Below, piece after piece: positions 19,018-47,216 of a stretch of 49,694 bases of DNA (its first letter is position 1; every line of letters starts with the position of its first letter). Source of the DNA: Thermodesulfobacteriota bacterium. GTDB lineage: Bacteria; Desulfobacterota; Thermodesulfobacteria; Thermodesulfobacteriales; Thermodesulfobacteriaceae. Location of the stretch: assembly GCA_030578315.1 (NCBI GenBank), contig JAUQQL010000006.1:1-49694 (forward strand), in the 5' to 3' direction. A program made the position numbers and the translations under genes. A model generated the notes under the pieces. It was given only the letters and a program-made list of their open reading frames with translations, did no database searches and was not told the DNA's origin.

Positions 19018-19503
19018 GTTCAAGCTAAAATATCAACAAAAAGCTGTTAGTAAAGAGGGGCAGAGAGATAAGGAGAACCACTTTAACGCTCAGGACCATT
19101 TGTAGAGAAGTTTCAGTCTACTTTGGGAACGAAGTTCAATAAAGGTTGGGAAAAAAGACGAGGAAGACCTAAGGAATTTTGCGATGGCTTTATCATATCG
19201 CTCTTTCTCTGGCAGGTACTCAAAGGACTTTCATATAGAGAAGTCTTAGCTTAAGCAAAAAGAGAGTTCGGAATAAGTCCTTCCTTGTCAGTATATCATT
19301 ATCGTTTAAAAAAACTGATCCCACTTTACTTCAGAGACTTACAAGAGAAATTGCAAGGAAAATTTTTCGGAGGAAGAGAGGAAAGATTAAACTCATTTTT
19401 GATGGAACTGGGTTTAGTTTCAATGAGGTGTATCCATTAAGATTTTACAGGGGAAAAGAGGTAAGAAGAGTGAAATCTCAGGTAAGGCTTGTGACGGTGA
19501 TAG
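19018..19503 (+). mobile_element. decayed DDE transposase remnant truncating cheB
   Basis: No open frame, but piecewise translation is clearly a transposase. From 19151 it reads RRGRPKEF, LWQVLKGLSYREVLA, a TAA stop, then AKREFGISPSL and YHYRLKKLIPLY. After a one-base frame change near 19360 it reads IFDGTGFSFNEVYPLRFYRG and VKSQVRLVTVIG, the first catalytic-Asp block (DGTGF) of IS4/IS5-like elements. The text then stops and the CheB linker begins, so the element's 3' half and the 5' third of cheB are both missing. It is a different family from the remnant at 5.1-5.5 kb. No intact inverted repeats or target duplication were found. Confidence 0.7.
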
Positions 19504-19510
19504 GGGGTAT

Positions 19511-20283
19511 TTGAAGACGAGAAAGTATATAACAAAGCCCGGAGGTACTATATCACTAAATATTGATAAAATAAGGGACGAACTAATTTTGAAAGTTAAA
19601 GCCGCATTAAAATCTCGTCTAAGAGTAGAACAATTTATAAAAAAAACTCGTGCAGAAAGAAAAAAAATAATCAAACCTAAGGCAGAACCCCTTCCTGTTC
19701 AAAATGAAGGAATAGTTCTTATAGGGGCATCTATTGGAGGACCAAGAACCCTTGAGGAGATTTTACCTGAGCTACCTGAGGATTTTCTTCTTCCCGTTGT
19801 AGTTGCTCAACACATGCCAGCAACATTCACAAAATCCTTTGCTGAAAGACTAAATGCGATCTGTAAGCTTAATGTTATAGAGGTTAATAGACCTTTACCA
19901 CTTGAAAGAGGAAACATCTATATAGGTAAAGGAGAAACAGATGTAGTGATTGCAAGAAGAGTTGGCAAACTTATGGTTCAACCAAAACCTGAAAATCCGA
20001 AGTTTCTATGGCATCCATCAGTAGAAGTTCTTGGAAGAAGTGCCCTTGAAAACATAGATCCGAAAAGAATTATTGCAGTAATGCTTACAGGAATGGAATA
20101 TGATGGCTCAGATGCTTTTGCTGAGATAAAAAAAGAGGTGGAAAAACAATTGCTAAATCTGAGGAGACTGCTGTTGTTTTTGGAATGCCAAGGGAACTGA
20201 TTGAAAGGGATGGTGCCACAGTAATACTTCCTGCTCAGAAGATAGCTAGACAAATTATAGAATGGGCAAAGAATTTCAATTGA
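19511..20283 (+). pseudogene. cheB: cheB remnant (chemotaxis methylesterase), truncated and frameshifted
   Basis: Begins in the CheB interdomain linker (YITKPGGTISLNI...KIRDELI) with the receiver domain absent, replaced by IS debris. The methylesterase domain follows with Ser in GASIGGPRTL, His in VAQHMPATFTKSF and Asp in LTGMEYDGSDA. At the seven-A run 20128-20134 one A has been lost: the open frame ends at 20200, but restoring the frame gives RGGKTIAKSEETAVVFGMP and a normal CheB C-terminus ending at 20283. Loss of the receiver domain would remove CheA control even if the frame were restored. First gene of a decayed chemotaxis operon; the next start follows by 9 bp. Confidence 0.88.
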
Positions 20284-20292
20284 GGTGAAAAT

Positions 20293-20936
20293 ATGCCAAT
20301 AAAAAAGAAAGATGAAAAAGAAGAAATCCTAGATCTGAAAATAGAAAGGCGTAGATGGGAGAGAAACTTTGAGAATTTAAAAAACAACTCTCAAGCGAGG
20401 TAGCCACTGAGCGAAGATGGGCTGCCCGAGACCTTGCTCAGTATAGGGAGGCATCAAAAATTTTACTTGAAAGATTGGAAAAGGAAAAGGATATATCTGT
20501 AAGAGAAGCAATCTTAAGCTCTCTTTTAGCCATTAAAGATGATATAGCAGTGAAAGGACTTATTGAACTTTTAAAAAGTGAAGATGCCCATTTAAGAAAT
20601 CAGGTTATAGAAACTCTAAAGGAGATGCCTGAAGAGGTGTCTCCCTATATTGAAAGACTTCTTAATTCAGAAGAACCTGACCTTAGAATATTTGCCATAA
20701 ACATAATGGAATCACTAAGACATCCGAAGGTTCTTAAATGGCTTAAACAGGTAATAGAGAATGATGAAAATGTAAATGTTTGCTCCACAGCCCTTGACTT
20801 AATTTCAGAGGTTGGAACTGAGGAGTTTATACCATCAATTGAGAGAGTAAAAGAAAGATTTAAAGATGAACCTTACATTCAGTTTGTAGCAGATCTTGCG
20901 TTGAGGAGAATAAATGAAGGAAAAATATCTACATAG
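20293..20936 (+). pseudogene. HEAT-repeat protein of the chemotaxis operon, frameshifted
   Basis: Starts at ATG 20293 behind AGGTGAAA and reads a charged N-terminus (KKKDEKEEILDLKIERRRW). The frame is lost at the six-A run 20379-20384 (one A missing), producing a stop at 20401. In the corrected frame it continues SSEVATERRWAARDLAQYRE and then four or so HEAT-like helical repeats (residues ~60-210; e.g. AVKGLIELLKSEDAHLRNQV). HEAT repeats mediate protein-protein contact; a HEAT gene between cheB and cheR suggests an accessory scaffold for the array or an adaptor, but no function is known. Overlaps the cheR start by 23 bp. Confidence 0.75.
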
Positions 20937-21780
20937 TGATATAACAATTACAGATGAAGAATTTGAAAAATTCAGAGAGTATTTTTATCGCAAGACAGGA
21001 ATAATGTTTGATGAAAGCAAAAGATACTTTGTTGATCGTAGACTCATAGAGAGAATCAAGGCAACAGGACATAGTTGTTTTAAAAACTATTTTATATTTT
21101 TGAGATTTGAGGCAACAGGAAAGGAACTTCAGAATCTAATAAATGCTTTAACTATAAATGAGACTTACTTTTTCAGAGAAGAATACCAATTTCAGTGTAT
21201 GGTAAAGAGGATGTTACCTGAAATTGTCTCTCGTAAAAATAAGAGAGACTTAATAAGAATATGGTCAATTCCTTCATCAACTGGAGAAGAGCTATACTCA
21301 ATAGCAATTTATTTGCTTGAATACTGGGATGAGATTGATAAATGGGATGTGGAGATAATATCCTCTGATATTGATACAAATTCTCTTGAGATAGCTAAAA
21401 AAGGCATATATTCTGAACTCTCCTTAAAACATTTACCCAATGAAGTAATAAAAAAATACTTTAAACCACTCGAGAACGGATACTTCAAAATTTCTGACGA
21501 ATTAATTTCCTCAATAGAATTTACAAGAGTTAATATTATTGATAGATTTGAAACCAAAAGATACCGTGGATTTGATATTGTTTTCTGCAGAAACCTGCTT
21601 ATCTATTTTGACGATGCCTCCCGTAAAGTGGCTGCTGAAAATCTTTATGATGCAATGAATCCTGGTGCATTCGTCTGTCTTGGTCATTCTGAATCAATGA
21701 GCAGAATTTCACCTATTTTTCAGATAAGAAAGTTTCCTGAAGCAATTGTTTATCAAAAACCTCTTGAGGAGAGAAGATGA
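20914..21780 (+). CDS. cheR: chemotaxis protein methyltransferase CheR
   Basis: SAM-dependent methylation of glutamates on chemoreceptors. 288 residues, full length and uninterrupted: the only intact gene in this operon. N-terminal helical domain (~10-80), linker NALTINETYFFRE, SAM-binding segment IWSIPSSTGEELYSIA (usually SAPCSTGEEPYS, so Cys and Pro are substituted), the DIDTNSLEIAKKG loop, and FDIVFCRNLLIYF. Start overlaps the HEAT gene by 23 bp; the stop overlaps the cheY start (ATGA). With cheB, cheA, cheY and the receptor broken, it has no obvious partner in this window. Confidence 0.92.
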   Translation: MKEKYLHSDITITDEEFEKFREYFYRKTGIMFDESKRYFVDRRLIERIKATGHSCFKNYFIFLRFEATGKELQNLINALTINETYFFREEYQFQCMVKRMLPEIVSRKNKRDLIRIWSIPSSTGEELYSIAIYLLEYWDEIDKWDVEIISSDIDTNSLEIAKKGIYSELSLKHLPNEVIKKYFKPLENGYFKISDELISSIEFTRVNIIDRFETKRYRGFDIVFCRNLLIYFDDASRKVAAENLYDAMNPGAFVCLGHSESMSRISPIFQIRKFPEAIVYQKPLEERR

Positions 21781-22148
21781 GAAAAGTTCTTGTTGTAGAT
21801 TGATGCATCAACAGTAAGAATGTATTACAAAAAATTTTAGAAGAAGCAGGCTTTCAGGTAGATGAGGCTGTAAACGGTTTAGAAGCTTTGGAAAAATCTC
21901 TTATTAATAATTATGACCTCTACATTGTTGATATCAATATGCCTAAACTTGATGGGTATAGCTTTGTTAGAAAACTAAGAAGTTCTAAAAATACAAAACA
22001 ATCTCCAGTTATTATGATAACTACAGAGGCAGAGGAAAAGGACAGGGAATTAGCCTATCAGGCAAGTGCAAATTTTTATTTAGTAAAGCCAGTAAAGCCT
22101 GATGAACTTGTAAAGTATGCGAAAATTTTTACAGGAGTTTCGTTATGA
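21777..22148 (+). pseudogene. cheY: cheY-like receiver protein with two compensating indels
   Basis: Starts MRKVLVVD at 21777, then TGA at 21801. Reading with one base removed at 21801 gives DASTVRMYYKK, the expected DD-phosphorylation pocket and alpha-1. A missing A in the six-A run near 21827-21832 restores the original frame, which continues ILEEAGFQVDEAVNG, the phospho-acceptor Asp in LYIVDINMPKLDGY, Thr in MITTEAE and Lys in LVKPVKP to 22148. So two opposite indels about 30 bases apart leave the gene in overall frame but with an internal stop. Overlaps cheR and cheA by 4 bp each. Confidence 0.82.
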
Positions 22149-24743
22149 AAAATCCTTTACTTGAACAGTTTATTGTTGAAAGCAGAGACTACATACAGAA
22201 AATAGGGGAGATTTTAATCAAGCTTGAAGAAAAAGGAGAATCTATTACACTGCTTAATGAACTTTTCAGACTTGTTCATACTTTAAAAGGTAATTCAGGG
22301 CTTTTTGATTTTCCAATGATGACAAAACTACTGCATGCCTCCGAAGACTTAATGAATCTTTTAAGAGAGGGCAAATTAAAATATAGTTCGGAAATTGCAG
22401 ACCTTTTTCTTGAAAGCATGGACATTGTATCACAAATGATTGATGAAGTTGAGATCTATGGAGAACCTCAGTTAAGCACAAATGAAATGGCAAAAGAAAA
22501 AACACTACTCATAAGAGAGATTCTTTCAGAGAAGAAAACAACTGAACAGACCAGAGAGGAAAATCAAATATCGGAAAGTTTTGACTACTCAGTAATTCCT
22601 GAAGAGATTAGAATTAAAATGCTAAGAGAGATTTTTGAGGGAAAGTCTGTTACATTAATCAATTACTGCCCTGAGAAAGAGTGTTTTTACAAAGGTGAAG
22701 ATCCCCTTTTATTGGTAAAAAGTACACCAGAAATAATATGGGGAAAGGCTTATTTACGAGAAAAAGTGGAAGACATTGAGGCTTTTGATATTTATAGTTG
22801 TATTATGAATTTTCTAATTATTTCAACTAAAATACCCTGAGACTTTAAAAGAACACTTTCAGTATGTTCTTGACCAGATAAAGATATATAAGCCAGAAAT
22901 TTCTGACTTGCTTATTCCAGAGGGTGACAAAAATGGCAGCCCCGTCTATGAAGATTTTGTTGAGAACTTTAGAGCCATGCTTAAAGAGAGGAATTACACT
23001 CTTCTTAAAAATTCCATTAATGCAATAATGGAGCTTACTGCCCTAAATCTCTTTGTGGCATCATGCTTAAGATGGATTGACCTTTTGATTGAATACATAC
23101 CAAAGTCAATTCCATTCATTGAGGGACTTTTAAAAAGCATTGAAACTCTTGAAAAGCCTAAGTTTGTTGAGTCTGATAAGCAAGTTGCTACTGAAAAAGC
23201 TGAAATAAAGGAAGAAGCACTTAAGGAACAGAGAGAAATACCTATAGAAATACTTCTTATAGAGCAAAGAAAACTACTTGAAAGACTATTTACATTAGAG
23301 GATGAAATAAGGGAGGGAGTATTTTCCTCAATAGTCCAATCGATTGAAAATGCTCTAAACTTTTCAGGCATAACTCAGCTAATTGAGAGGTTTAGAAAAA
23401 TTAGAGAGAACTCAAACCTGGAAAATTATCAGGAAATTCTTTTATTTTTGAATGAATTAATCCAGGCAGAATCAATAGCTTCCAAACTTGTTGAAGTTCC
23501 AGAGAAACCTAAGTTAAAGTCAATTCAAAAAGAAGAAAAATCTGTTTTAAAACCAGAGGAAACAGTTACAGCCAGAGTTTTAAAAGTTAATGAAGAGAAG
23601 ATTAACAGGCTTATGAATTTAATTGGTGAACTTGTGGTAGCCAAAAACAGTTTATTATATCTCTCAAAAAAGATTGATAGAGATTATGAAATCCCTGAGT
23701 TAAGCAAAGAAATTAAGTCTCAATATAGTGTTGTAAACAGAATTGCAGAGGAGATGCAGGATGCAATTATGCAGGTAAGAATGATTCCTGTGGGAACAGT
23801 TTTTCAAAGATTTCCTCGCCTTGTAAGAGATATATCCAAAAAACTCGGGAAACAAGTAAGACTGGTAATTGAAGGTGAAGATACAGAAGCAGACAAAAAT
23901 GTTATTGAAGCATTGAACGAGCCTCTTATACATCTTGTAAGAAACAGTCTTGACCATGGAGTGGAAAGTCCAGAGGAGAGAATTAATAAGGGGAAACCTG
24001 AAGTAGCCACCATTACTCTTAAAGCAAAGCGTGAAGCTGATAGAATTATAATCCAGGTAGAAGACGATGGTAGAGGCATAGATCCTCAACTCATAAAGAT
24101 GAAAGCATATGAAAAGGGATTAATCTCTGAGGAGATTTTAGATAAACTAACCGACGAAGAAGCTTTAAATCTAATATTTTTACCAGGCTTTTCAACAAAA
24201 GAGGAAGCTTCAGACCTTTCAGGAAGGGGAGTGGGAATGGATGTGGTAAGAACAATGGTTGAAAGATTTAACGGAACTGTCTCTATTTCATCAGAAAAAA
24301 ATAAGGGAACAACTGTAACACTGTCCCTTCCTCTTTCAATGGCTGTATCCCACGTTATGCTTATTGAGACAGCAAGTAGAAAATACGGAATCCCAATGGA
24401 TGCAGTTGTTGAAACAGTCAGGATAAAAAAAGAGAATATTCATGTTTTTAAAGGCAGGAAAACAGCATCACTTAGAGGTAAAGTTTTGCCAATCTTCTTT
24501 TTAAATGAACTGCTTGAACTCAATAAAGCCCCTCTTACCAATGAAGATGGAGAGTATGCTCTACTTGTTCTTAACATAAGAGGTGAAATTGCTGGTGTTG
24601 TTGTTGATAGGTTTCTTGGAACTGCTGATATAATCCTTAAACCCTTTACAGGATTTCTCTCAAATCTAAAAGTATTCTCGGGCACAGCCATTATGGGAGA
24701 TGGCTCGGTGCTTTTAATAATAAATCCAAAGGAGTTGATATAA
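22145..24743 (+). pseudogene. cheA: chemotaxis histidine kinase CheA, single frameshift
   Basis: Two open pieces (22145-22840 and a frame open to 24743) join into one CheA of about 865 residues if one A is removed from the run at 22829-22832 (...IISTK | YPETLKEHFQYV...). Domains in order: Hpt P1 with phospho-His in LVHTLKGNSGLFDF; a poorly conserved P2/linker; dimerisation P3 (~KVNEEKINRLMNLIGELV); HATPase P4 with N-box LVRNSLDHGVE, G1 VEDDGRGID and G2 GRGVGMDVV; CheW-like P5 at the C-terminus. All catalytic elements are retained, so loss is recent or the piece is rescued by slippage. Without rescue, the kinase and the phospho-donor domain are on separate chains. Confidence 0.88.
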
Positions 24744-24968
24744 TGGCGGTTGAGTATTTGGATAATAAGGCAATTTTTAGAGAAACAGTGACAATTGAAG
24801 AGGCTGAAGAACTTTTTAACTGACTTTTAAGTTAAGGGTGAAGCAGAAATTGATATGACCGAGTGTAGCCACATTCATACAGCAGTTCTTCGGATAATCC
24901 TTTTGCTTAAACCTAAACTGAATTTGCCTGATGATAGTGACTTAAAAAGATGGATTAAAGGAGGATAA
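24743..24968 (+). pseudogene. small STAS-like chemotaxis-operon protein, disrupted
   Basis: ATG overlaps the cheA stop by one base. Reads MAVEYLDNKAIFRETVTIEE...EELFN, then TGA at 24821 where Trp (TGG) is expected, then an extra T near 24833. The corrected frame continues LLSKGEAEIDMTECSHIH and TAVLRIILLLKPKLN and ends with RWIKGG at 24968, overlapping the next Shine-Dalgarno. About 75 residues originally. The pattern beta-alpha with DMTECSHIHTAVLR resembles a STAS/anti-sigma-antagonist-like fold, but the identification is weak. Confidence 0.6.
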
Positions 24969-24972
24969 TAAA

Positions 24973-25342
24973 ATGCCAAAAACAGTTCTTATAGTAGATG
25001 ATTCAGCCACAATGCTTCTTAGTCTTAAAACAAACCTTGAAATACATGGATTTAAAGTTGAGCAGGCATCAAATGGAAAGCAGGCTCTTGATAAGGTGAA
25101 GTCTGGATTAAAGCCAGATTTAATAATAACAGATATTAACATGCCTGAGATGGATGGACTTGAGTTCATAAAAAATGTAAGACCAATACTCAAGTTTACT
25201 CCTATACTTATACTAACTACTGAAAGTGAGCAAAGTAAGCGGGAGCAGGCAAAAAAAACTTGGTGCTACAGGCTGGCTTGTAAAACCTGTATCAGGACAG
25301 GACTTAATAAACGTGATAAAAAAGGTTCTACCAGGAGTGTAA
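24973..25342 (+). pseudogene. cheY: second cheY-like response regulator, frameshifted near its C-terminus
   Basis: Receiver domain: acidic pocket VDDSATM, phospho-acceptor Asp in LIITDINMPEMDG, Thr in LILTTESEQ. At the eight-A run 25251-25258 one A too many shifts the frame; with seven As it would read REQAKKLGATGWLVKPVSGQ (containing the conserved Lys-Pro) and stop at 25342. In the actual frame the protein runs on to 25365 with a nonsense tail and loses the conserved Lys. SD GGAGGATAAT precedes the ATG. It lies directly upstream of the receptor gene. Confidence 0.85.
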
Positions 25343-25357
25343 GGGAGAGAAAATATA

Positions 25358-26600
25358 ATGACTGAAAAAAGAACGGCTGATTACATTAAATTGTGGGCTA
25401 TATTAATAACGATTGCTTTATTTTTTACATTTTTTGACATCTTTATTTTCTCAAAAGTTAGCTTTCTTCATGAAAGCCTGAAACTTGCTATATTAATATT
25501 TATCTCTGTGGTAACAAGTTCAGCGATTTGTATATTCTTAGCCCGCAAGGGCAAACACACCTTCATGAAAAAAAACTGACATTGAGGAGTTATCCAGAAA
25601 AAATCTAAAAGAAGCCCATAAATTTTGTTCAGAACAAAGAAAACTTTTTAATGATATCTTTGACCTTTTTTCAAAAAATCTTGAGGATACTGTAAAAAAG
25701 ACAGAAGAAAGCATTACAGAATTTATAAAACTCCTTGACTCTCTCTATCAGAAGACAAAGGAGCAGACAGAACTAATAAAATCTTCCATCGGTTCTGGAG
25801 AGGATTTGTTAACAGTGGTGGATAGACAGATAGATCACAACAGGGAAATGTTGGAGTCTTTGGATAATATGATAAATCTTCAAAATAAAAGCATAAAGGA
25901 AAATCTGGACAGAATTTATAGCCTTCAGACAAAGGTGAATGACATAGTAGCTTTAATGGATAGCATAAAAGAGATTTCGGAGCAGATAAATATACTTGCG
26001 ATTAATGCAGCCATTGAGTCCGCAAGAGTTGGAGAAAAAGGCGCAGGATTTGCTGTAATAGCCGATGAAATAAGGAAACTTTCAAATAAGACTGAAAAAA
26101 TATCAAGTGAGATTAAAGAGAGAATCTCATCTCTTGACAGCACAATGACCGAGCAATATGAGTTTTTTAAGAAGAAACTTGAAGGACCAGTGCAGTTAGA
26201 TATGATGAAAAATGCTAAAGAAGCAACAGAAAAAATAGAAAATGACTTCAACAACGTTGGAAGTTTATTAAATAGACTCATCAAAGACATTGATAAACAA
26301 AATGAGTTAATTTTCAATATAGTTACAGATTTACTTGGAAAGGTCCAGTTTCAGGATGTGGTGAGACAAAAACTTGAAAAAATATGCGAACAGATGAGAG
26401 AACTTTCAGACTATAACCATAAACTTTTGAACTGGGTTGAAAATCCTAAGGAAGAAGCCAAACCACCTGAGATAAAAACTCTGCTTGATAAGTTTTATCA
26501 AAGTTATGTAATGCAGTGTCAGAGAGAGATTCATGAGGAAGTATTTAATTACACTTTTAAGGTAAGTGGTAAAAAAGAACCAAAAATTGAGCTTTTTTAA
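25358..26600 (+). pseudogene. methyl-accepting chemotaxis protein-like receptor, frameshifted
   Basis: The first frame encodes two transmembrane helices (residues ~10-32 and ~42-62) separated by only a few residues, so there is no periplasmic sensor domain. The frame breaks at the eight-A run 25568-25575. The continuing frame reads DIEELSRKN... and a long coiled coil to 26600, with the receptor hairpin tip at [33 protein letters not shown], which binds CheA/CheW. The corrected protein would be about 413 residues. Its signalling core is intact but detached from the membrane anchor. Last recognisable gene of the decayed operon. Confidence 0.85.
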
Positions 26601-27743: not shown

Positions 27744-28849
27744 TGGAAATTTTTGTAGAAGAGTCTGCTCTTTCGCACTCACTTACTCAAGAAGTATTGA
27801 AAAAAGAGTATCCTGTAAAGATAATTTCTTCTTATAAAGATTTTGAGTGGGAATGGGTTCCATTTTCAGAACTTATAACTCTTGGTAAGAGAAGGTTATT
27901 TTTAGTAAATTACAAAGGTCGCTTTTTTAGAGCCTGTCCCGGTACCAAAAACTATATTTGTTGTGGATATCATATTTTTCATTTTGGAGAAGGTTGTCCT
28001 TTGGACTGTAGTTATTGCATTTTACAAAGTTATTTTAATCGTCCAGGACTTAAAGTATGGGCTAACCTAATAGAAGATGGTTTTCAAGAAATGGAAAAAA
28101 TTTTAAAAGATGCCCAAAGGAAAAAAAGAATTTTAAGAATTGGGACAGGAGAATTTGCAGATAGCTTAGCTTTGGAACCTATTGTAGAGATAGCTGAAAA
28201 GCTTATTTATTTCTGGGAAGAAAAAAAACCTTTTGCAGTTTTAGAATTTAAAACTAAAGTTTCTATTTCTCAAGAATTTTGGAACAAGTTTAAAGGAAAT
28301 CCAAAGGTGATTTTTGCCTGGTCTGTTAATACGGAAAAAATAATAAAGGAAGAGGAAAGAAATACTGCTTCTTTGGAGGCTCGTTTAGAAAGTGCTAAAA
28401 ACGCGGTAAAAAGTGGATTTACTTGTGCTTTTCACTTTGACCCTATAGTTTTCTATGAAGGGGCTGAAAAGGAGTACCCTCAAGTTTTAGAAAAAATCTT
28501 AAACAATTTTCCTTTAGAAAAAATTGCTTGGATAAGCTTAGGAACTTTTAGATATTCTAAAGACCTTAAGAAAATAGTTGAAAAGAGATTCCCTCACAGT
28601 AAAATTTTTTCTGAAGAATTTATTGAAGGAGTTGACGGAAAAAAACGTTACTTCATAGAAATAAGAAAAAAACTTTATCAAAGTTTTAAAAAATTGATGA
28701 AAGAAGTTCAGAATCAAGTAGTATTTTATTTTTGTATGGAAAATGAAAGGCTTTGGGAAGAAGTTTTAGAAGAGAAATACTTTTCTTCAGAAAAATTGGC
28801 TAAAAGGCTTGATGAAGTAGCCTTTAAACTTTGCAGAAGTGCCGAATAA
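27743..28849 (+). CDS. SPL-like radical SAM protein (spore photoproduct lyase family)
   Basis: 368 residues. The radical SAM cluster motif Cys-x3-Cys-x2-Cys lies in GEGCPLDCSYCILQ near residue 92-99, preceded by the family signature CPGTKNYICCGYHIF. A TIM-barrel core follows (EFADSLALE, VIFAWSVNTE, HFDPIVFYEG). This is the SplB/SPL-like group found in many non-sporulating anaerobes; the classical enzyme repairs spore photoproduct thymine dimers in DNA. No sporulation is expected here, so it may repair other thymine lesions or do different chemistry. Its ATG overlaps the asd stop by 1 bp, and its stop overlaps the cytochrome start by 11 bp. Confidence 0.85.
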   Translation: MEIFVEESALSHSLTQEVLKKEYPVKIISSYKDFEWEWVPFSELITLGKRRLFLVNYKGRFFRACPGTKNYICCGYHIFHFGEGCPLDCSYCILQSYFNRPGLKVWANLIEDGFQEMEKILKDAQRKKRILRIGTGEFADSLALEPIVEIAEKLIYFWEEKKPFAVLEFKTKVSISQEFWNKFKGNPKVIFAWSVNTEKIIKEEERNTASLEARLESAKNAVKSGFTCAFHFDPIVFYEGAEKEYPQVLEKILNNFPLEKIAWISLGTFRYSKDLKKIVEKRFPHSKIFSEEFIEGVDGKKRYFIEIRKKLYQSFKKLMKEVQNQVVFYFCMENERLWEEVLEEKYFSSEKLAKRLDEVAFKLCRSAE

Positions 28850-29999
28850 ATTTATAGCCTTTATTTTTATTACACTTTTTATCTATTTTTGGTTTAAAAT
28901 TCCTGAATTTAAATATAAAGATTTTACTTGCAAAGATTGTCATAAAGAGGTTACTCTAGATAAAAATCATGAAAGCATAGACTGTACATCTTGTCATACG
29001 AAAGAAAATTATTCTTTTCAAGTATGGGAGAAAACTTGTGGTAATTGTCACAAAGAATTAGTTGAGAGTTTTAAAAAAACTTCTCATTTTGGTTATAAAG
29101 AGATAGTTTTTAATGTCTTTAAAAGCATTTTAAAAGTGAAAATTTTACCCTTTGAAGTAGAAGATTTTTTGAAAAGAAGGTGTTTTTTATGTCACTTAGA
29201 TTATGAAGGAGAAGATTATTCTAATACAAGAAGAGGAAAAGGTTGCGGTGCTTGTCACCTGCAATATGAAAAAGGGAAAATAAAAACACATCAAATTAAG
29301 GTACCCACGGACCAAAATTGTTTAGCCTGTCACTATAGTACTTATATAGGATGGGACTATTACGGATTTGTTCCACAAAGTTGGTACATAGACTATAGAA
29401 GTCCTTTTATAAAGGGAAAAGATCCGGAAAGACCATGGGGAATTGAAGCTAACTTAATTAAGCCTTCCATACATAAAGAAAAAGGACTAACTTGTATTTT
29501 TTGTCATAGTAAAGAGGAACTTATGTTAAATAAGAGAAAACCTTCCTGTAGAGAATGTCACAGAGAGTTAAAAAAAAGTTTTTACCATTTTCCAGAAACT
29601 CTTCAAAGAATAAGGTGTGAAGTTTGTCATACTAATTTTTTAAATCAAGACGGACTATGGGAGTGTCGTTTGGAATTAGAACCAGATATGGAATTTTGGA
29701 TAGACTTAAGAGTTCAAGAATCTTCAGAAATTGAAAAAATTTTCCAAAACTATTTGGCAGGTAAACCTTATAGATTTGGAATGAAAGATAAAGTAAGTGG
29801 AGAAGAAAAGGCTGGAATATGGCTTTGTGCTTTACATAACAGAACTTTTGAAAAAATTAATTTAGGAAAAGACAAGCTAAATAGAATTTGTATTTTGAGA
29901 AAATTCCGAGTTAAAATTTTAGGAGCTCAAAAAGTCTGGGATTTAAAATTTGAGAAATGTGTAGTTCCTCATTCAAATAATAGAGGAAGTTTGTATTGA
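28839..29999 (+). CDS. membrane-anchored nine-haem cytochrome c
   Basis: 386 residues starting at a GTG inside the SPL gene (11-bp overlap). One N-terminal hydrophobic helix (~5-18) as anchor or uncleaved signal. Nine CxxCH haem motifs occur in residues ~30-265: CKDCH, CTSCH, CGNCH, CFLCH, CGACH, CLACH, CIFCH, CRECH, CEVCH. About 120 C-terminal residues carry no haem motif and contain Trp- and Arg-rich text with two more His, possibly a docking or catalytic domain. It belongs to the broad NapC/NrfB/nine-haem group by architecture, but I do not recognise a defined family. It probably carries electrons in the periplasm. Translational coupling to a DNA-repair-type gene is odd. Confidence 0.85.
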   Translation: MPNKFIAFIFITLFIYFWFKIPEFKYKDFTCKDCHKEVTLDKNHESIDCTSCHTKENYSFQVWEKTCGNCHKELVESFKKTSHFGYKEIVFNVFKSILKVKILPFEVEDFLKRRCFLCHLDYEGEDYSNTRRGKGCGACHLQYEKGKIKTHQIKVPTDQNCLACHYSTYIGWDYYGFVPQSWYIDYRSPFIKGKDPERPWGIEANLIKPSIHKEKGLTCIFCHSKEELMLNKRKPSCRECHRELKKSFYHFPETLQRIRCEVCHTNFLNQDGLWECRLELEPDMEFWIDLRVQESSEIEKIFQNYLAGKPYRFGMKDKVSGEEKAGIWLCALHNRTFEKINLGKDKLNRICILRKFRVKILGAQKVWDLKFEKCVVPHSNNRGSLY

Positions 30000-45896: not shown

Positions 45897-46610
45897 TTAA
45901 TTTTTTACTAAAGTTCCTACTTTTTCTCCCAAAACAGCTTTTTTGATGTTGCCAAAATGAAGAAGATTAAAAACTAAAATTGGCAAGTTATGAGTTTTAG
46001 CTAAAGAAAAAGCAGTTGCATCCATTACTTTTAGATCTTTTTGCAAAACTTCAGAAAAAGTGATTTCGTCGTATTTTTTAGCTGTAACATCTTTTAAAGG
46101 ATCTTTATCATATACTCCTTCAACCTTTGTTGCTTTAAAAAGAATTTCAGCTTTTATTTCTAGAGCTCTAAGAGTAGCAGCTGTATCAGTAGTGAAAAAA
46201 GGATTACCAGTTCCGCAGGCTAAAATAACTATTCGTCCCTTTTCTAGGTGTCTTATAGCCTTTTCTCTTATATAAGGTTCAGCAACTTTAATAACTTCCA
46301 AAGCAGAAAGTACTCTGCAAGGTACTCCTTGCATTTCTAAAGCATCTTGTAAAGCTAAGGCATTTATTAAAGTTGCCAGCATTCCCATATAATCTGCTCT
46401 TGCTCTATCAATACCTAGTTGTTCTCCTACAACTCCTCTAAATATATTCCCTCCGCCCATCACTACCGCAAGTTCCACACCTAAATTGTGAACCTCCTTA
46501 AGTTCACAGGCAACTTGATTAATAATTTGTGGATCAATTCCAAATGGTTTTTCCCCTAAAAGTGCTTCTCCTGAAACTTTTAAAAGAATTCGCTTATACT
46601 TAAGTTTTAT
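45897..46610 (-). CDS. pyrH: UMP kinase, apparently initiated at ATA
   Basis: Phosphorylates UMP to UDP. About 237 residues if translation starts at ATA 46610, giving [19 protein letters not shown], exactly where other PyrH proteins start ([17 protein letters not shown]). Between the in-frame stop at 46622-46620 (the tsf stop) and the first conventional codon (GTG 46478) there is no ATG, GTG or TTG; starting at 46478 would delete 44 residues including the nucleotide-binding KVSGEAL. GGAG lies 14 bases before the ATA. Other motifs: [34 protein letters not shown]. The start is 9 bp from tsf, in the standard rpsB-tsf-pyrH-frr order. Confidence 0.9.
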
Positions 46611-46619
46611 CCCAAGTTT

Positions 46620-47216
46620 TTATTCTCCTATCTGAAATCTGCAAAATCTTTTAATCACAATTTTTTCTCCAGTTTTAGCAATAAGTTCATTTAAAAGGTC
46701 TTGAATTGTAATTTCTGGATTTTTAATAAAAGCCTGTTCTAATAGTACATTTTCTTTGTAAAATTTTTCCAATTTACCCTCTATAATTTTAGAAATTACA
46801 TGCTCGGGTTTTCCAGCTTCTTTAAGTTGTTCCTCATAAATTTTTTTTTCTCTTTCCAAAATTTCTGAAGGAACTTCTTCTCTTTTTATACAAATAGGAT
46901 TAGTAGCCGCAATTTGCATAGCAAGATTATAAGCAAATTCTTGAAAATCAGGGGTTCTAGCTACGAAATCTGTTTCACAATTGACTTCTACCAAAACTCC
47001 TATTTTTTTATTAGCATGAATATAAGCAGAAATAACTCCTTCTTTAGCTTCTTTGGCAGCTCTTTTGGTAGCAATAGCTAACCCTTTTTTTCTTAAAATA
47101 TCTATAGCTTTTTCTATATCTCCTTCTGCTTCCTCTAAAGCCTTTTTACAATCACTAAAACCAGCAGCAGTTCTAGCCCTCAATTCTTTTATAAGATCTA
47201 AATCTACCTTTGTCAT
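46620..47216 (-). CDS. tsf: elongation factor Ts
   Basis: Nucleotide exchange factor for EF-Tu. 198 residues, a short form like that of Thermus rather than the ~280-residue E. coli form. N-terminal UBA-like domain (LIKELRARTAAGFSDCKKALEE) and core (VLVEVNCETDFVARTPDFQEF). Start ATG 47216 has AGGGGG upstream. Lies 36 bp after rpsB and directly before pyrH, whose own start is non-standard. Confidence 0.96.
   Translation of the reverse strand: MTKVDLDLIKELRARTAAGFSDCKKALEEAEGDIEKAIDILRKKGLAIATKRAAKEAKEGVISAYIHANKKIGVLVEVNCETDFVARTPDFQEFAYNLAMQIAATNPICIKREEVPSEILEREKKIYEEQLKEAGKPEHVISKIIEGKLEKFYKENVLLEQAFIKNPEITIQDLLNELIAKTGEKIVIKRFCRFQIGE

Follow-up and report, generated by a model that had tools for sequence, protein, structure and literature searches.

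Start codon of pyrH

How is an essential UMP kinase translated when the N-terminus of its reading frame offers no ATG, GTG or TTG? The question arises for pyrH on the minus strand of the window, the whole stretch of 49,694 nucleotides that was analysed here (genome G000). The upstream cistron tsf (EF-Ts; 46620–47216) terminates with the TAA at 46622–46620, and the pyrH frame is open from this stop to its own TAA at 45899–45897. Behind the tsf stop, the minus strand reads AAACTTGGG, then the ATA at 46610–46608, and then AAA CTT AAG TAT AAG CGA ATT CTT TTA AAA GTT TCA GGA GAA GCA. Read from the ATA, the gene has 237 codons and a stop (45897–46610), and its product covers positions 1–233 of the 233 positions of the UMP kinase profile TIGR02075 with 323.4 bits (cut-off, 243.9); among solved structures, its best relatives are uridylate kinases (lowest E-value, 9.6e-81). 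The first in-frame canonical codon is the GTG at 46478–46476, 44 codons past the ATA. The protein read from this GTG loses profile positions 1–41, including the KVSGEAL loop, and still scores 271.1 bits, above the cut-off; gene finders limited to ATG, GTG and TTG would cut the essential enzyme behind this loop. No second pyrH was found in the G000 genome; the only further match there lies in a 413-codon frame and extends over about 76 residues at 32% identity. The missing canonical start, as proposed in a reading made from the sequence alone, is confirmed as a real observation, with a near-cognate ATA, a very rare kind of start codon, standing at the N-terminus in its place.

A Shine–Dalgarno (SD)-like AGGAG is located inside the tsf end (46629–46625), and the spacing of 14 from GGAG to ATA and the distance of 9 from the tsf stop to ATA given by the sequence-only reading are both right. 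A TTG that had gone without mention there (46615–46613) lies at a normal SD distance, 9 nt behind the AGGAG, in another frame than pyrH. This TTG opens a two-codon frame, TTG GGA TAA (46615–46607), whose stop overlaps the ATA as ATAA, and the same nine bases are present in G003, a species of the same genus.

A start seven codons further in, at an ATT in G000 (46589) and an ATC in G003, is very improbable. An AUY codon does occupy that place in both species, but the codon itself differs between them, an SD-like run of purines is not seen ahead of it by eye, and such a start would drop KLKYKR, a segment with counterparts in both the family profile and the best solved relatives.

Conservation of the ATA in a sister species

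G003 is the nearest relative available, separately assembled, with a PyrH 87% identical to that of G000. Its locus reads tsf TAA AAATCTTGGG ATA AAA GTT AAG TAT; the ATA is common to both species and the spacer is one base longer. In addition, CTTGGGATAAAA is identical in both (12/12), against a background in which four-fold sites in five genes agree at 190/338 and the rpsB–tsf and pyrH–frr spacers agree at 22/40 and 13/27 columns, respectively. Conservation is also good at the tsf end immediately upstream, so this identity is only weak evidence of selection on the spacer itself. In a tree of tsf and pyrH from 18 genomes (14 of the genus and four of the related group g6), G000 and G003 are joined as sisters with support of 100/99; a midpoint-rooted drawing, in which the root is not established, places the pair nearer to g6 than to the other 12 genus members (96/95).

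An ATG in close relatives would have pointed to a sequencing error, and the independent assembly of G003 carries the same ATA. Since both this ATA and CTTGGGATAAAA recur in a separately assembled sister, a sequencing error is very unlikely, and one shared by both genomes would not be credible. Errors of assembly or sequencing, or decay of pyrH, might be suspected from the 5.17% contamination of the G000 bin, its foreign 16S and the disrupted chemotaxis genes of the window; with the ATA context repeated in G003 and a pyrH that is present once, at full length and without other defects, we regard this explanation as highly unlikely.

Read-through of the tsf UAA to give a Tsf–PyrH fusion could be imagined in G000, where tsf and pyrH share a frame, and its probability is close to nil. 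As a mechanism shared by the two species it is refuted, because the additional spacer base of G003 places the two genes in different frames.

Rarity of the missing start among pyrH loci

Among 60 genomes searched (G000 included), pyrH was found in 57, with no match in G042 and weak matches only in G015 and G049. Together with 80 loci from the genome_contigs set, these 57 gave 137 pyrH loci, at least three contigs being present in both sets. Each locus was inspected for a canonical triplet in the 25 codons that precede the RILLKxSGEAL region, a mechanical criterion that does not imply use of the triplet. The motif and an upstream stop were present at 122 loci, 120 of which have a canonical triplet (the nearest being ATG in 77, GTG in 27 and TTG in 16); the two without one are G000 and G003. 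At L207, an ATG is present without an upstream stop, and the motif was missed at 14 loci, 13 of which have a canonical triplet, the remaining one (L059) being broken at the match start and unreadable. Overall, a canonical candidate exists at 134 of 137 loci, is missing at two (G000 and G003), and one locus is unreadable.

Start slot of the genus

The pyrH starts of relatives were read by motif, which missed 4 of 30 loci. Elsewhere in the genus (12 members), pyrH starts with GTG (11) or TTG (1) and never with ATG, so that the 14 genus starts (L003–L022) comprise 11 GTG, one TTG and two ATA. These counts point to a lasting preference in the genus for weak pyrH starts right behind tsf. In the 12, the start is located 6–10 nt past the SD (AGGxG) and 1–5 nt past the tsf stop, one codon upstream of the ATA column in 11 and two codons upstream in one. 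In five g6 genomes (G018, G022, G024, G026 and G029), a TTG lies close behind the tsf stop, three codons upstream of the ATA column.

Alignment of related pyrH starts, which had been suggested as a check, shows the ATA conserved in one other species, G003, and GTG or TTG in the remaining 12 members. The claim that the ATA coincides exactly with the initiator Met of homologues fails for the genus, whose other 12 members start upstream; two genomes of the same family, G016 and G023, do have a GTG in the ATA column. The ATA lies 14 nt (G000) or 15 nt (G003) from the SD and 9 or 10 nt past the tsf stop, whereas the out-of-frame TTG lies 9 or 10 nt past the SD and 4 or 5 nt past the tsf stop. In a mechanical table of SD spacings from 15 stretches of G000 and G003, 102 of 144 fall at 5–10 nt and 9 of 144 at 14–15 nt.

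Proposed initiation at AUA and its main rival

Initiation at AUA is the best-supported reading of these comparisons. No canonical start is available in frame, nothing at the extreme N-terminus other than the ATA resembles a start codon, and the sister keeps this ATA. Initiation there is favoured because a full UMP kinase is read from the ATA of a single-copy gene and the same ATA recurs in G003, because weak pyrH starts are customary in the genus, and because near-cognate starts seem to occur elsewhere in the family (the alanine racemase discussed below). Against it count the SD spacing, which lies outside the range of the relatives and in the tail of the mechanical table, the occupation of the ancestral slot by TTG rather than ATA, and the presence of the ATA in two genomes only. 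On balance, PyrH chains probably start with fMet at the AUA at 46610, where the unfavourable SD spacing would be offset by translational coupling with tsf and perhaps with the UUG mini-ORF as well.

In the simplest history for this proposal, an indel on the stem of G000 and G003, just behind an old TTG start, would have put that start out of frame, and the displaced TTG would now open the two-codon ORF UUG GGA UAA. Ribosomes ending tsf 9 nt upstream would be delivered to the AUA, ribosomes ending the mini-ORF, whose UAA overlaps the AUA, would perhaps also feed it, and initiation would take place despite the long SD spacing. The likely result would be a low yet sufficient level of UMP kinase next to abundant EF-Ts. 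Reinitiation after tsf, which the sequence-only reading had brought up, is still plausible, and the ATAA overlap gives it a sharper form; taken as a whole, that earlier interpretation is partly supported. Furthermore, an AUA common to two species, with the ancestral slot visible beside it, would provide a clean case for asking whether coupling can replace SD spacing.

The chief rival to the AUA start is a start at the UUG (46615), after which GGA is read and the ribosome slips one base back (GGA to GGG) at the UAA, producing M-G-I-K-L-K-Y. The position of this UUG relative to the SD and the tsf stop is within the range of the starts of the 12 relatives, both species share TTGGGATAA, the slip pairs GGG and GGA, and a stop codon in the A site favours slips. 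However, a lone P-site slip is usually inefficient in the absence of a slippery heptamer or a stimulator; no X XXY YYZ heptamer of a programmed −1 frameshift was found here, just a single-tRNA GGGA slip site. A tRNA-Gly with anticodon UCC is not among the 44 tRNAs read from the G000 bin, which is contaminated and incomplete for tRNAs, and an out-of-frame TTG at that place could be due to chance.

A predicted hairpin, ACUUGGG-AUAAAA-CUUAAGU (46617–46598), carries the AUA in its loop and is judged not functional. At 37 °C its z-score is −3.01 in a 40-nt stretch that was chosen after the fold had been seen, −1.48 in 61 nt and −1.81 in 100 nt. The G003 hairpin has a shorter stem and is weaker, and the hairpins of both species are open at 70 °C; the likely genus presumably grows near 65–80 °C. 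A functional start codon displayed in a hairpin loop was rejected on the same grounds of opening and weakness, which also weigh against the slip. Altogether, a slip after a UUG start is unlikely. The wider alternative, in which pyrH is translated via the out-of-frame UUG-GGA-UAA ORF, either by such a −1 slip or by reinitiation one base back at the overlapping AUA, is a possibility that we hold only tentatively. If true, this route would naturally rescue an essential gene whose start codon had fallen out of frame, in a family with initiation relaxed enough for AUU starts in alanine racemase.

Initiation machinery

In Escherichia coli, infC starts at AUU, and self-control by IF3 is the known reason for the near-cognate start of infC. 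By analogy with infC, the sequence-only reading had considered an IF3-dependent control of pyrH. In all 14 genus genomes, by contrast, the conserved start position of infC carries an ATG. Inspection of IF3 by eye reveals no obvious change, and the 16S rRNA of G003 matches those of its congeners at the three places examined, namely what we take to be the 790 loop, what we take to be the 1338 region, and the anti-SD. These three indirect observations lend no support to IF3-dependent control of pyrH, which is not favoured. The sole 16S of G000 (L229; G000:C28:42872-44417) is about 77% identical to those of the genus over 1,217–1,220 bases, and its contig is probably a contaminant of the bin; no CCTCC tail is seen in the bases examined of this 16S.

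The 45 tRNA places found were covered by stretches in which ARAGORN read 44 tRNAs; anticodon CAU occurs in three of these and UAU in none. One CAU tRNA (C60) is initiator-like by eye: its acceptor stem ends in an unpaired C-A, and its anticodon stem contains three G-C pairs. An altered initiator tRNA was rejected on these readings, an argument that the contamination of the bin makes weak.

Comparison with known near-cognate starts

Overlapping stop and start codons couple translation in junctions of the AUGA type. The pyrH junction resembles them in that a stop and a start overlap, here UAA and AUA as AUAA; unlike them, its start is AUA and its upstream ORF consists of two codons.

Natural AUA starts exist in Staphylococcus aureus in infC, ccpN and citZ, that of ccpN being conserved (PMC13009471), and pyrH is like these genes in having AUA as a natural start codon. 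The non-canonical sites tested there gave about 10% of the AUG output in poor medium, and ccpN gave up to 30% in rich medium (PMC13009471), a precedent in favour of the AUA start of pyrH. The S. aureus AUA and AUU sites all possess extended, strong and well-spaced SDs (PMC13009471), a feature that accompanies these cases without strictly defining them, whereas the AGGAG of pyrH is 14–15 nt away; this difference counts against the AUA start. Also unlike the S. aureus AUA genes, pyrH closely follows tsf and has an out-of-frame UUG in the normal slot.

The infC of E. coli and Listeria resembles pyrH as an essential gene with a near-cognate start. In Listeria, infC has an ATT start and rnhC an ATC start, rsbW reporters rank ATG > ATA > ATT, and less than 0.3% of core open reading frames have rare or flexible starts (PMC13068326). 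A frame-shifted lambda cI is expressed from a non-canonical start (PMC6397469); as proposed for pyrH, an indel behind the start displaced the old start and an unusual codon was put forward as its substitute. The cI case is a spontaneous laboratory mutation with a codon such as ACA (PMC6397469), whereas the change proposed for pyrH is natural, concerns an essential gene and is common to two species. No report of an AUA start of pyrH was found in the literature covered, which included a minority of subscription papers.

Relaxed initiation in the family

Alanine racemase (alr) is matched in 28 of 30 family genomes, of which 21 are readable with the motif (L293–L313; for example L303, G000:C52 near 28677–29762) and seven are not. 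In 19 of the 21, no ATG, GTG or TTG lies within 20 codons before the conserved start tryptophan (WYKKLEI type), including 13/13 of the genus and 6/7 of g6; in G008 and G012 a TTG lies 22 codons upstream, and G018 and G014 have an ATG start. One or two codons before the tryptophan, an ATT is found in 18 genomes and an ATA in one, roughly 5–10 nt behind a purine-rich SD by eye. Such an arrangement possibly reflects a family-wide AUU start of this essential enzyme; no report of an alanine racemase with AUU or another non-canonical start codon was found in a literature search that covered a minority of subscription papers. The alr case is more widespread than that of pyrH, and the alr match of G010 contains one TAA.

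Across genomes, 122 of 254 G000 frames had a homologue, and only pyrH and alr were left after short leaders and overlaps had been removed by eye, the alr loci of G000 and G003 having been deliberately added to the set. The AUA of pyrH and the AUU of alr suggest that near-cognate starts of essential enzymes may be under-annotated in the family.

Stop-to-stop frames of at least 120 aa were also scanned and flagged when the first canonical triplet lay at least 35 codons in. This gave eight flagged frames in G000 (203 frames in 250 kb), six in G003 (262 in 317 kb), three in G013 (175 in 200 kb) and two in G005 (179 in 200 kb), by eye mostly upstream extensions, antisense frames or broken genes; one hit of G013 is the alanine racemase.

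Two further G000 frames are candidates for a missing canonical start. A DegT-type aminotransferase (L240:2119-3300; G000:C24) has no canonical start near its conserved IPFVDLK and has an ATT eight bases past AAAGGAG. Among its orthologues, the G003 copy is cut at a contig end, four are unreadable, and an ATG lies near the start in six of the seven other readable ones, G007 being the exception. The minus-strand frame L236:1933-2607 (G000:C21) has a signal-peptide-like start, 67 codons free of a canonical start and a possible ATA start six bases past GGAGG, and no homologue was matched in the 13 other genus genomes.

Part of the excess of flagged frames in G000 over G013 and G005 comes from disrupted chemotaxis genes in the window. 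These belong to a plus-strand cluster at 19087–26600, in which several frames are broken (CheB-, CheY-, CheA- and receptor-like, named by eye) and a CheR-like frame (20914–21780) looks intact by eye. A possible transposase remnant is situated beside the cluster at 19.1–19.5 kb, and the cluster looks like a decaying che operon.
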